Shown here piece by piece: positions 32,061 to 35,256 of a DNA stretch of 64,000 nucleotides (position 1 is the first letter of the stretch; every line of letters starts with the position of its first letter). Where the stretch lies: contig CP050293.1 of NCBI GenBank assembly GCA_014189435.1, positions 5,027,001 through 5,091,000 of the forward strand, given 5' to 3'. Made by a program: the position numbers and the translations under genes. This DNA comes from Mesorhizobium loti (GTDB taxonomy: Bacteria > Pseudomonadota > Alphaproteobacteria > Rhizobiales > Rhizobiaceae). The notes below the pieces were generated by a model. The model was given only the letters and a program-made list of their open reading frames with translations. It did not search any database and was not told where the DNA came from.

Positions 32061-33497
32061 ATGATGCCGCCTGCAAAAAAGGAAGTCCGTCCGTCGAGCC
32101 GCGGAGGACGTGCCCGCACGCCTGCCTTCGTGAAAAACCAACGGGGCGTCAAGAACTGGAAGGAAGTCAGCGCCTGGCTGGAGTGGCGCGGCATCGAGGA
32201 CATCGAGTGCATCACGCCCGATCAGGCCGGCGTCGCGCGTGGCAAGATGATGCCATCGAAGAAATTCACCTCCAACACCTCGCTGGCACTGCCATCGGCT
32301 GTCTTCATGACGACGATTTCCGGCGGCTACCCCGAGGATGGCAACGGCTTCCATTACCCGGAAGACGACGGCGACCTCAAGCTGATGCCGGACCTGTCGA
32401 CGCTGACAGTGGTGCCCTGGGAAGAAGACCCGACGGCCGCGGTCATCTGCGACCTTGTCCACCAGGATGGCCGCTCGGTCGAGTTCACACCGCGCAACGT
32501 GCTGAAGCGTGTGGTGGCTGCTTATGACAGACTCGGCCTGAAGCCGGTGGTGGCGCCCGAGATCGAGTTCTACCTGGTGCGCAAGAATCCCGACCCGGAC
32601 TATCCGCTGACCCCGCCAGTCGGCCGTTCGGGGCGCGCGATCGGCGGCGGCGCCGGCTATTCGATCGCCGGCGTCAACGAATTCGACGAACTGATCGATG
32701 ACATCTACCATTTCTCCGAAAGCCAGGGCCTGGAGATCGATACACTGATCCACGAGGAAGGCGCCGGCCAGCTGGAGATCAATCTGCGCCACGGCGACCC
32801 GATCGAACTGGCCGACCAGGTGTTCATGTTCAAGCGCACCATTCGCGAGGCGGCGCTGAAGCACGAGATCTACGCCACCTTCATGGCCAAGCCGATCCAG
32901 GGGCAGCCCGGCTCCGCCATGCATATCCATCAGTCGATCATCGACAAGAAGACTGGACAAAACATCTTTTCAGCCGCCGACGGCTCGGAAACCGACGATT
33001 TTTTCCACTTCATCGGCGGCATGCAGAAGCATGTGCCGAACGCGCTGGTGATGTTCGCGCCCTATGTCAATTCCTACCGCCGGCTGACGCAGGCGGCGTC
33101 GGCGCCGGTCAACAACAAATGGGGCTATGACAACCGCACCACGGCGTTTCGTGTGCCACGCTCGGATCCGGCGGCACGGCGCGTCGAAAACCGCATCCCG
33201 TCCTCCGATGCCAACCCCTATCTGGCGCTGGCGGCATCGCTTGCCTGCGGGCTGATCGGCATCACCAACAAGATCAAGGCCGAGCCTCCGGTGCTGACCA
33301 CGGCCAACGCCGACGAGATCGACCTGCCGCGTGGCCTGCTCGAAGCCGTCGACCTGTTCGAGGGCGACGAGGAACTCTGCGCGCATCTGGGTAAGTCCTT
33401 CGCCGCGACCTATGCGGCGATCAAACGGGCGGAATTCGAGACCTTCATGGAAGTGATCAGCCCGTGGGAGCGGGAGTATTTGTTGCTGAATGTGTAA
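32061..33497 (+). CDS. puuA: glutamine-synthetase-family gamma-glutamylputrescine synthetase
   Basis: The 478-residue enzyme belongs to the GS type I fold: the metal-binding EIEFYLV and EEGAGQLEINL segments, GSAMHIHQS, and the ATP/glutamate region NRTTAFRVPRSDPAARRVENR with PSSDANPYLALAA are visible. The variations (IHQS, ENRIPSSDANPY) point to PuuA-like enzymes that ligate glutamate to putrescine rather than ammonia. The next metabolic gene, puuB, normally adjacent, is 470 bp away, separated by a small repeat-bounded cassette. The first 30 residues are basic and variable. A second in-frame ATG at 32064 is equally possible. Confidence 0.88.
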   Translation: MMPPAKKEVRPSSRGGRARTPAFVKNQRGVKNWKEVSAWLEWRGIEDIECITPDQAGVARGKMMPSKKFTSNTSLALPSAVFMTTISGGYPEDGNGFHYPEDDGDLKLMPDLSTLTVVPWEEDPTAAVICDLVHQDGRSVEFTPRNVLKRVVAAYDRLGLKPVVAPEIEFYLVRKNPDPDYPLTPPVGRSGRAIGGGAGYSIAGVNEFDELIDDIYHFSESQGLEIDTLIHEEGAGQLEINLRHGDPIELADQVFMFKRTIREAALKHEIYATFMAKPIQGQPGSAMHIHQSIIDKKTGQNIFSAADGSETDDFFHFIGGMQKHVPNALVMFAPYVNSYRRLTQAASAPVNNKWGYDNRTTAFRVPRSDPAARRVENRIPSSDANPYLALAASLACGLIGITNKIKAEPPVLTTANADEIDLPRGLLEAVDLFEGDEELCAHLGKSFAATYAAIKRAEFETFMEVISPWEREYLLLNV

Positions 33498-33500
33498 GGC

Positions 33501-33522
33501 AGTAGGGGAGTAGGGGAGTAGG
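33501..33522 (+). repeat. left 8-bp repeat array (AGTAGGGG)
   Basis: Two full AGTAGGGG units and a partial AGTAGG lie between the puuA stop and the four-helix-bundle gene. It is the reverse complement of the outer units of the array at 33904-33960. Confidence 0.85.
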
Positions 33523-33527
33523 AACGA

Positions 33528-33897
33528 ATGGCCGAAAAAAACAGGCTCCTACAAGGACTTGCTGGTTTGGCAACAGGCGATGGACCTTGCAGTGGCTGTT
33601 TACGGCGCAACGAAATCCTGGCCAAAGGAAGAACTTTATGGACTGACCAGCCAAGTGCGACGCGCCGCAAGCTCGGTGCCGGCAAACATAGCGGAGGGGT
33701 ATGGCAGAGAAATTCGAGGCTCCTATTTGCAGTTTCTCCGTATAGCTCAAGGATCGCTGAAGGAACTGGAAACTCAGCTTCTAATTGCTGAACGCACCGG
33801 CATCGCGCCGAAAGCGACGATCGCCTCATTGTTGGCGAGTACTGAAAGTGTGGGAAAGCTTCTTCGACTTCTCATCCGTAAACTTGCCGCCGACTAG
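33528..33897 (+). CDS. four helix bundle protein (TIGR02436 / 23S rRNA IVP-like), apparent frameshift at start
   Basis: The main frame reads KDLLVWQQAMDLAVAVYGAT, then KEELYGLTSQVRRAASSVPA and NIAEGYGREIRGSYLQFLRI, the conserved core of this family (VWQ-A, LT-Q-RRAA-S-P-NIAEG-GR). The family includes proteins encoded in 23S rRNA intervening sequences and the Avd accessory protein of diversity-generating retroelements; the bundle forms pentamers that bind nucleic acid. The best start is ATG 33528 (MAEK), but the run of seven A at 33535-33541 puts it out of frame; with six A it reads MAEKTGSYKDLLVW. Otherwise translation must start at TTG 33559. GTAGGAACGA precedes the ATG, so the repeat array itself supplies the ribosome site. 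Confidence 0.8.
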
Positions 33898-33903
33898 CTT
33901 ACC

Positions 33904-33960
33904 TATTCCCCTATTCCCCTATTCCCCTATTCCCCTATTCCCCTACTCCCCTACTCCCCT
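33904..33960 (+). repeat. right 8-bp repeat array (TATTCCCC x5, TACTCCCC x2)
   Basis: Seven CCCC runs spaced exactly 8 bp apart follow the four-helix-bundle gene. The minus strand is therefore (GGGGAATA)n/(GGGGAGTA)n, able in principle to form G-quadruplexes. The outermost two units match the left array in inverted orientation. Confidence 0.9.
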
Positions 33961-33969
33961 GTGAGCATC

Positions 33970-35256
33970 ATGCCCTACCAATCCCCGATCTCTCCCGGCC
34001 GTTCCTGGTATGAGGACACGGCCGGCGTACGGCCGGAATACCCGGCGCTGGATGGCGACCGCACGTGCGATGTCGTCATCATTGGCGGCGGCTTTACCGG
34101 TCTGTCGGCGGCAGCGCATCTGGCCAAGGCGGGCGCCAATGTCGTTTTGATCGAGGCGTATCGCTTTGGTGATGGCGCCTCCGGGCGCAATGGCGGCCAA
34201 CTTGGCACCGGCCAGCGTGCCTGGGTCGAGGACCTGGAAGCCGAGTATGGCTTCACCCGCGCCAAGGCGCTGTTCGATCTCGCCGAGGAGGCGAAGACGC
34301 ACCTCCTCGAATTCACTGCCGCCAACCAGATCGATATCGACTATATGCCGGGCCAGCTCTCGGTGGCGCACAAGCCGCGCTACGTCGACGACTACAAGGC
34401 GCATGCCGAAACCATGGCGAGCCGTTTTTCCTACCCGCATATCTCGTTCATGGATGCCAGGGAGACGGCGGAGCGGCTGGGCTCGACCGCCTATTTCGGC
34501 GGGACGCGCGACACCGGCACTGGCCACATCCACCCGATGAAGCTGGTGATCGGCACGGCGCGGGTGGCAGCGCTGGCCGGCGCCCAGCTGTTCGAGGGAA
34601 CCCCGTCGACCGGCATCGTTTCCAGTGGCGGCAAGGTCAAGGTTTCGACACCGAAAGGCACGGTGACGGCGCAGAAATGCCTGATCGCGGTCAATGCCTA
34701 TGGCGGCACGCTCGAGCCGGTGAGTGCGGCGCACATCATGCCGATCGGTTCGTTCATCGGCGCAACCGTTCCTCTGGGGGCGGACTCAGACGTGCTGCCG
34801 GGCGGCGAAGCGGTCGACGATTCCCGCTTCGTCGTGCGCTATTTCCGCAGATCGAAGGACGGGCGGCTGCTGTTTGGCGGACGCGAGGTTTATGGCGTCA
34901 ACGATCCGAAGGATATCCACATCCACATCCGCCGCCAGATCGCCGAACTCTATCCGGCGCTCAGGGATGTCGAGATCACGCATGGCTGGGGCGGCTATGT
35001 CGGCATCACGGTGCCGAGAAAACCGTTCGTGCGCGAAGTGATGCCCAATGTGATCTCGGCCGGCGGCTATTCCGGCCACGGCGTCATGCTGTCGAACTTC
35101 TTCGGCAAGCTCTATGCCGAAACCGTTGCCGGCAACCGCGACCGGCTGAAGCTGATCGAGGATTTGAAAATCCCGCCGTTCCCCGGCGGCCGGCGCTTCC
35201 GCACGCCGCTGCTGTTCCTGGCGCTCAACTGGTTTGCGCTGCGGGACAGGATTTAG
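33970..35256 (+). CDS. puuB: FAD-dependent gamma-glutamylputrescine oxidoreductase
   Basis: The 428-residue enzyme is a DAO-type flavoprotein: VVIIGGGFTGLSAAAHLAKAG is the FAD-binding GxGxxG fold, followed by E (VLIEA) and GASGRNGGQ, the usual PuuB motif; HGWGGYVGITVPRKP and GGYSGHGVMLSNFFGKL near the end complete the FAD site. It oxidises gamma-glutamylputrescine in the Puu pathway, after puuA. I prefer ATG 33970 (MPYQSPISPGRSWYED); GTG 33961 is possible. No Shine-Dalgarno is seen because the repeat array ends just upstream, so the cassette may have altered its translation. Confidence 0.9.
   Translation: MPYQSPISPGRSWYEDTAGVRPEYPALDGDRTCDVVIIGGGFTGLSAAAHLAKAGANVVLIEAYRFGDGASGRNGGQLGTGQRAWVEDLEAEYGFTRAKALFDLAEEAKTHLLEFTAANQIDIDYMPGQLSVAHKPRYVDDYKAHAETMASRFSYPHISFMDARETAERLGSTAYFGGTRDTGTGHIHPMKLVIGTARVAALAGAQLFEGTPSTGIVSSGGKVKVSTPKGTVTAQKCLIAVNAYGGTLEPVSAAHIMPIGSFIGATVPLGADSDVLPGGEAVDDSRFVVRYFRRSKDGRLLFGGREVYGVNDPKDIHIHIRRQIAELYPALRDVEITHGWGGYVGITVPRKPFVREVMPNVISAGGYSGHGVMLSNFFGKLYAETVAGNRDRLKLIEDLKIPPFPGGRRFRTPLLFLALNWFALRDRI

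Follow-up and report, generated by a model that had tools for sequence, protein, structure and literature searches.

A small gene lying between two co-directional metabolic genes, with short tandem repeats facing each other as inverted arrays on its two sides, raises the question of whether such a unit is a mobile element, a part of the operon that acts in RNA, or an ordinary operon gene among incidental repeats. The locus lies in a window of 64,000 nucleotides, the whole stretch of DNA analysed here (G000:C1:5027001-5091000 of an 8.33-Mb genome, G000). The reading favoured in the following, tentatively and at a probability of about 0.42, is that of a site-faithful, homing-like intervening cassette of an operon junction rather than a hopping transposon. 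The features of the locus are:

32061..33497, plus strand: upstream gene of the glutamine-synthetase family (puuA-like), an open reading frame with all NCBIfam matches below cut-off
33501..33522, plus strand: left array, AGTAGGGG x2.8, beginning 3 bp past the upstream stop codon (Tandem Repeats Finder)
33559..33897, plus strand: S23 / PF05635 / TIGR02436 four-helix-bundle gene with a TTG start (open reading frame, profile matches)
33902..33960, plus strand: right array, 7.4 copies of CCTATTCC, in inverted orientation to the left one (minus strand GGGGAATA/GGGGAGTA; Tandem Repeats Finder)
33961..35256, plus strand: downstream gene, FAD-dependent oxidoreductase (puuB-like), for which ATG 33970 fits relatives (open reading frame, NCBIfam)

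The layout given by the first-pass annotation, a TIGR02436 gene between inverted 8-bp arrays and two co-directional metabolic genes, was confirmed by Tandem Repeats Finder, by profile matches and by the inverted local score of the two flanks, which was 40; sliding controls in the 64-kb window reached at most 28 and exceeded 25 in 12 of 1554 cases. The inverted arrangement stood and the repeat units were corrected, the left one being GGGGAGTA and the right one mostly GGGGAATA. The S23 protein of the window matched TIGR02436 (E 3e-35, 120.6 bits, curated cut-off 24) and PF05635 (E 1e-35, 122.2 bits, curated cut-off 33.8). No second gene-like match was seen between the arrays among open reading frames or in NCBIfam and PF05635 profile searches, in agreement with the earlier statement that the cassette holds no transposase or reverse transcriptase gene. 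The names puuA and puuB are loose labels, as the flanking proteins did not reach the curated cut-off of any NCBIfam model shown (e.g. 219 against 650 for gamma-glutamylputrescine synthetase; for the oxidoreductase, the best 25 of 63 matches). In the window copy an ATG at 33528 is out of frame with the S23 domain, the frame of which opens at TTG 33559, and intact S23 copies are present in relatives of the locus. Thus, the window copy may be decaying, or its start may have been misread. A second TIGR02436 gene of the same genome, at G000:C1:6734434-6734763 (L032 3390-3764), lies between genes presumed from their sequence to be tolB- and pal-like, and is flanked by inverted arrays of a different octamer, about GAATTGAA.

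The structural model of one relative (L067; mean pLDDT 93.5) is a four-helix bundle with TM scores of 0.85-0.90 to 2gsc chains, and S23 was likened to 2gsc and 2rld by both sequence and structure. Compared with Avd (4dwl and 8ub7-type chains), the same model gave TM scores of 0.73-0.81, Foldseek E values of 0.02-0.1 and identities of 11-14%. The proposed ties to the 23S intervening-sequence proteins, by the PF05635/TIGR02436 match, and to Avd, by fold, are both supported. S23 proteins have a median net charge of +2 and would be expected to bind nucleic acid; a pentameric ring is described for an S23 relative in the portions of the papers available. No nuclease or transposase family match was obtained for S23 in NCBIfam and PF05635 profile searches, and PADLOC gave no defence-system match for two S23 proteins.

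The same layout was sought across the family. A TIGR02436 gene was found in 118 of the 146 genomes of the genus set, and genus loci comprised the 30 best-scoring, 60 chosen among the matches listed (many at puuA-puuB were left out) and 14 at puuA-puuB. S23 was present in 46 of 151 genomes of a family sample and in 50 of 299 of a phylum sample; 80 named loci, the best among 555 relatives of a rhizobial alignment, and L032 were added. The gene was recognised at 237 loci; 13 of them lacked usable 150-bp flanks, leaving 224, of which 206 were distinct (18 dropped), a set that leans to the Rhizobiales. Each upstream flank was scored against the downstream flank in reverse complement, with the 99th percentile of the controls as threshold; the controls were 291 windows shifted along the same contigs and did not include other small operon genes.

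The survey of other TIGR02436 loci that the first-pass annotation had suggested revealed inverted flank scores above this threshold at 186 of the 206 distinct loci, while 20 failed. The median inverted score was 43 at S23 loci, against 16 in the 291 control windows, 18 in 412 swapped pairs and 16 in the direct orientation; the 90th percentile of the swapped pairs was 39 because many loci share units. The test was passed by 59 of 72 S23 clusters formed at 75% identity. By named phylum, six in all, the pass rates were 44/49 for Pseudomonadota, 7/9 for Cyanobacteriota, 1/2 for Acidobacteriota and 1/1 each for Planctomycetota, Chloroflexota and Fibrobacterota, with 2/2 unassigned; phylum-sample loci of other classes passed in just 5 of 15 cases. 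S23 matches were obtained in 12 of 34 plasmid records, and these 12 loci, the majority from cyanobacteria and two pairs of them nearly identical, comprise 8 that passed and 2 with strong direct arrays. No S23 match was found on phages. Strong array pairs in direct rather than inverted orientation were observed at L351 (score 125), L355 (52) and L274 (74). Two S23 copies on two plasmids of Calothrix brevissima were considered as proof of hopping and rejected, because a block of about 3.5 kb is common to both.

Of the 206 loci, 155 had a clear tandem in each flank, with periods of 7,7 in 123, 8,8 in 28 and unequal periods in 4; the other 51 did not. The 8-bp period is that of the puuB and pal sites, the 7-bp period that of nuoD, mmsB and alphaE (site names presumed from motifs, e.g. 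FGPQHPAAHG). Units at nuoC-nuoD vary by species (GTGAGTA, GTGAATG, GGCAGTA, GCGAATA, GGCAATA and GGCAGTC, in some rotation), and the two arms agree within a locus, own pairs scoring 39 and pairs swapped within the site 19. The corresponding values were 49/39 at alphaE, 55/54 at mmsB, 47.5/45 at puuB and 51.5/47 at pal, the gain being small at the last three, where loci of the same site have units in common. One S23 clade at puuA-puuB has GGGGARTA and another mostly GGGCAGTA (by eye). Arm strength there was higher with S23 than without (medians 51 vs 41, p 0.04; 11 and 14 loci), a difference too slight to rely on. The earlier designation as a G4 repeat holds for the window octamer but not for most other S23 sites, where the commonest units (GGCAGTA, GCGAATA, GTGAATG and GTGAGTA) have no run of at least three G. 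G-quadruplex formation was therefore rejected as a shared principle.

S23 genes remain faithful to their sites. On a tree of 201 S23 proteins, with site labels on 166 rows (four set by eye), the five labels required 5 changes, compared with a shuffled mean of 83 and minimum of 75; repeat period required 3, compared with 25 (minimum 21). Median dN/dS was 0.06-0.09 at all five sites (4 pairs only at pal), indicating strong purifying selection. Orientation was called by a codon-position GC score for 178 of the 206 loci, with 28 uncalled; S23 runs in the same direction as its upstream neighbour in 176 of these 178 and as its downstream neighbour in 168. Site fidelity, low dN/dS and co-direction together indicate that the S23 genes at these sites are, as judged from sequence comparison, old, site-bound and functional rather than fresh transposon copies.

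For each query, junctions were read in its 30 closest matches. At nuoC-nuoD, 19 were clean and empty, 10 contained S23 and 1 contained an unrelated small ORF. At puuA-puuB, 14 contained S23, 13 an inverted pair without S23 (judged by eye; weak in two, with scores of 20 and 24), 1 was clean and 2 were at contig ends. Comparison of the junction in relatives, also proposed earlier, thus yielded S23-free sites. The small ORF at nuoC-nuoD (L331 in G114) has a signal-peptide-like start and is preceded by a short GGCAGTAG stretch.

Occupied junctions may also differ in the gene that they hold. S23 identity was bimodal in the 382 nuoD pairs whose downstream DNA was 88% identical or more (below 72% in 242, at least 80% in 124 and between in 16), and loci at 95-97% downstream identity may hold S23 genes about 65% alike with different arrays. 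S23 was less than 72% identical in 3 of 6 such pairs at puuB; no replacement was seen at mmsB and alphaE, with 0 of 36 and 0 of 89 pairs below 72%. In 66 loci, flank identity beside the cassette was, per 60-bp bin, 0.85-0.92 where S23 was alike (123 pairs) and 0.83-0.91 where it was unlike (235 pairs); since these values are nearly equal, replacement is tight. Such replacement could also stem from ordinary homologous recombination of old alleles. The two outcomes named beforehand as contrary to insertion, ordinary divergence of the same gene and repeats in all relatives and absence of the repeats from other TIGR02436 loci, were not what was found.

Arrays also occur by themselves. In G000, GGGGANTA arrays are present at two further places, both as inverted pairs with no gene seen inside. 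GGGGANTAGGGGANTAGGGG is present in 81 of the 146 genus genomes and its reversed control in none; octamer arrays were found in 9 of 28 S23-free genomes and 72 of 118 S23-bearing ones. A heptamer pattern occurs at many loci in both G000 and G009 (controls 0), and G009 has S23-less array pairs despite having no S23 match. Array pairs are thus scattered genome-wide even in a genome lacking S23, which indicates that arrays do not need S23. In G000, where 15 of the 17 loci found were read, GGCAGTA dominated in 12; in G009, GCGARTA did so in all 12.

At orthologous S23-less sites of two genus genomes the unit differed in 4 of 5 cases (L359/L377, L361/L371, L367/L381 and L368/L370); the site is kept and the unit rewritten. 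At a site beside a gene presumed to be LOG-like, read in 30 of 143 matching genomes, relatives 89-96% identical carried varying units (GGGGAATA, GGGGAGTA, GGGCAGTA or GGCAGTA) and a few were without arrays. Control of the unit of S23-less pairs by the S23 clade was considered and rejected at this site, where G021 (S23 with GGGGAGTA) and G022 (S23 with GGGCAGTA) both have GGGCAGTA. The mobility inferred by the first-pass annotation was not upheld in the sense of recent movement as a free element: S23 clades are site-faithful, the loops of S23-less pairs differ between loci and look unrelated (by eye), and at this LOG-like site the repeat unit does not track the resident S23.

Among known systems, the S23 cassette fits better as a protein-operon counterpart of the 23S rRNA intervening sequences than as a hopping transposon. 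Those of Leptospira and Coxiella likewise have an ORF of the S23 family between terminal inverted repeats and occur sporadically at fixed sites. Unlike them, the window cassette lies at a junction of two protein genes, not inside a 23S rRNA gene, and has tandem arrays on both sides; no rRNA was detected in 20 other S23 loci with Rfam at the gathering threshold. In the sections available, the Coxiella element is described with tandem heptamers, variable in number, before the ORF, and the results are said to suggest that S23p is not synthesised, its ORF decaying (PMC4990558), whereas S23 at the operon sites is under strong selection. 23S_rRNA_IVP has also been reported, in the part of the source available, in rRNA insertions over several sites, at some of which other families predominate (PMC11270868). 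The G-rich heptamers of Xanthomonas and Nostoc resemble the S23 arrays in being 7-bp tandems near stop or start codons, genome-wide and with a genome-typical unit, and those of Xanthomonas often form convergent (inverted) pairs, according to the available portion of PMC4692102. Unlike these repeats, many units at S23 sites have no G-runs, so that G4 is not general; a term search of that paper did not find 'four helix' or 'S23'. Literature linking S23 genes to inverted arrays was absent from the matches listed, most subscription journals lying outside the search.

S23 cassettes share a site-faithful phylogeny, patchy presence and clean empty sites with inteins and homing introns. They differ in that S23 has no nuclease family match; the behaviour resembles homing, and membership is not claimed. 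In diversity-generating retroelements, Avd stands next to a reverse transcriptase gene and to template and variable repeats. S23 shares the Avd fold, a likeness also remarked for PF05635 in the available part of another paper (PMC10053308), but no such reverse transcriptase gene was found in the window cassette or its two neighbours.

As a homing-like cassette, S23 would be expressed by read-through from the host operon and, as a five-membered ring like that of its solved relative, might bind single-stranded or hairpin forms of the arms. Such binding would help the cassette to copy into a matching empty junction of related DNA by means of host recombination and replication, and slippage and template switching between the inverted repeats would keep the arms alike at the DNA level. 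Alternatively, the arms might act in RNA, pairing in the polycistronic mRNA to fix a point between operon genes at which the transcript is processed or stabilised, much as RNase III processes 23S rRNA intervening sequences, with S23 bound to the stem. The RNA of the window does fold left arm to right arm (z -2.3, matched by 2 of 100 shuffles), S23 runs in the direction of the operon genes, and RNase III excision is reported for the Coxiella 23S element in the available text (PMC4990558). However, mismatches between the arms comprise 133 G-U wobbles and 141 A-C pairs (15 clusters for, 21 against, p 0.41), and selection on an RNA stem is thus unsupported; the likeness between arms looks, from these mismatch types, as though it arises at the DNA level, and sense-RNA pairing leaves no trace. 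An RNA role for the arms is therefore unlikely. The commonness of S23-less arrays, the low dN/dS and the attachment of S23 to its site would also suit an ordinary conserved operon gene with slippage-made repeats gathering in its spacers. An incidental link of this kind is improbable in view of the 186 of 206 loci compared with about 1% of controls (shifted windows, not other small operon genes), the six named phyla, the match of arms within a locus, the clean empty sites and the occurrence, at one junction, of different S23 genes with different units.

A RAYT/REPIN system consists of a Y1 transposase gene with REP palindromes. By analogy, S23 could mobilise array pairs, and the S23-less pairs would be its non-autonomous offspring; these are dispersed, inverted and of genome-typical unit, and the two S23-less octamer pairs of G000 have the unit of the window cassette. 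However, the cassette contains no Y1 transposase, S23 being the sole match there, and S23 has no transposase family match. G009 has array pairs without S23, the heptamer prevailing in G000 is the unit of neither S23 cassette in that genome, and loops look unrelated between loci. A shared order of variant units, examined as a sign of a common source of the arms, was not above shuffling (10 vs 8.4; 276 of 1000). A pairing of this type is less probable still, and the homing-like cassette remains the preferred reading.

Structures of PF05635 proteins have been solved since 2006-2007, with no known function. The rule seen at most loci examined, S23 with matching inverted arrays, in an operon, site-faithful and replaceable, turns the family into a testable element, and would link the intervening sequences of rRNA to the heptamer repeats of intergenic regions. 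The change of unit at orthologous sites within one genus calls for a homogenising mechanism, none being named in the literature searched. It is a more doubtful proposal that S23 marks bacteria-wide, transposase-free and nuclease-free homing-like elements of operon junctions, with short repeat arrays as ends and a unit set and rewritten per genome, of which 23S rRNA intervening sequences and 'cas-associated' S23 genes would be special cases.

23S_rRNA_IVP genes have been reported as function associated with cas loci in the available part of PMC3936711, where S23 lies, as in the window, inside an operon of other genes. Two plasmid loci are of this type, namely cas10-S23-cmr3 with inverted arrays in Picosynechococcus (L353) and cas6-S23-cas4 with direct arrays in Pseudanabaena (L351). 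Given these array flanks, insertion of an element would explain such genes equally well; 'cas-associated' S23 genes may be inserted cassettes, and gene-neighbourhood methods may misread S23 as a member of CRISPR or other operons. At G000:C1:2351900-2352200 (L375), a site occupied in relatives by an S23 cassette ahead of an alpha-E-like gene, only the right arm is kept, and this lone arm is likely a remnant of such a cassette.
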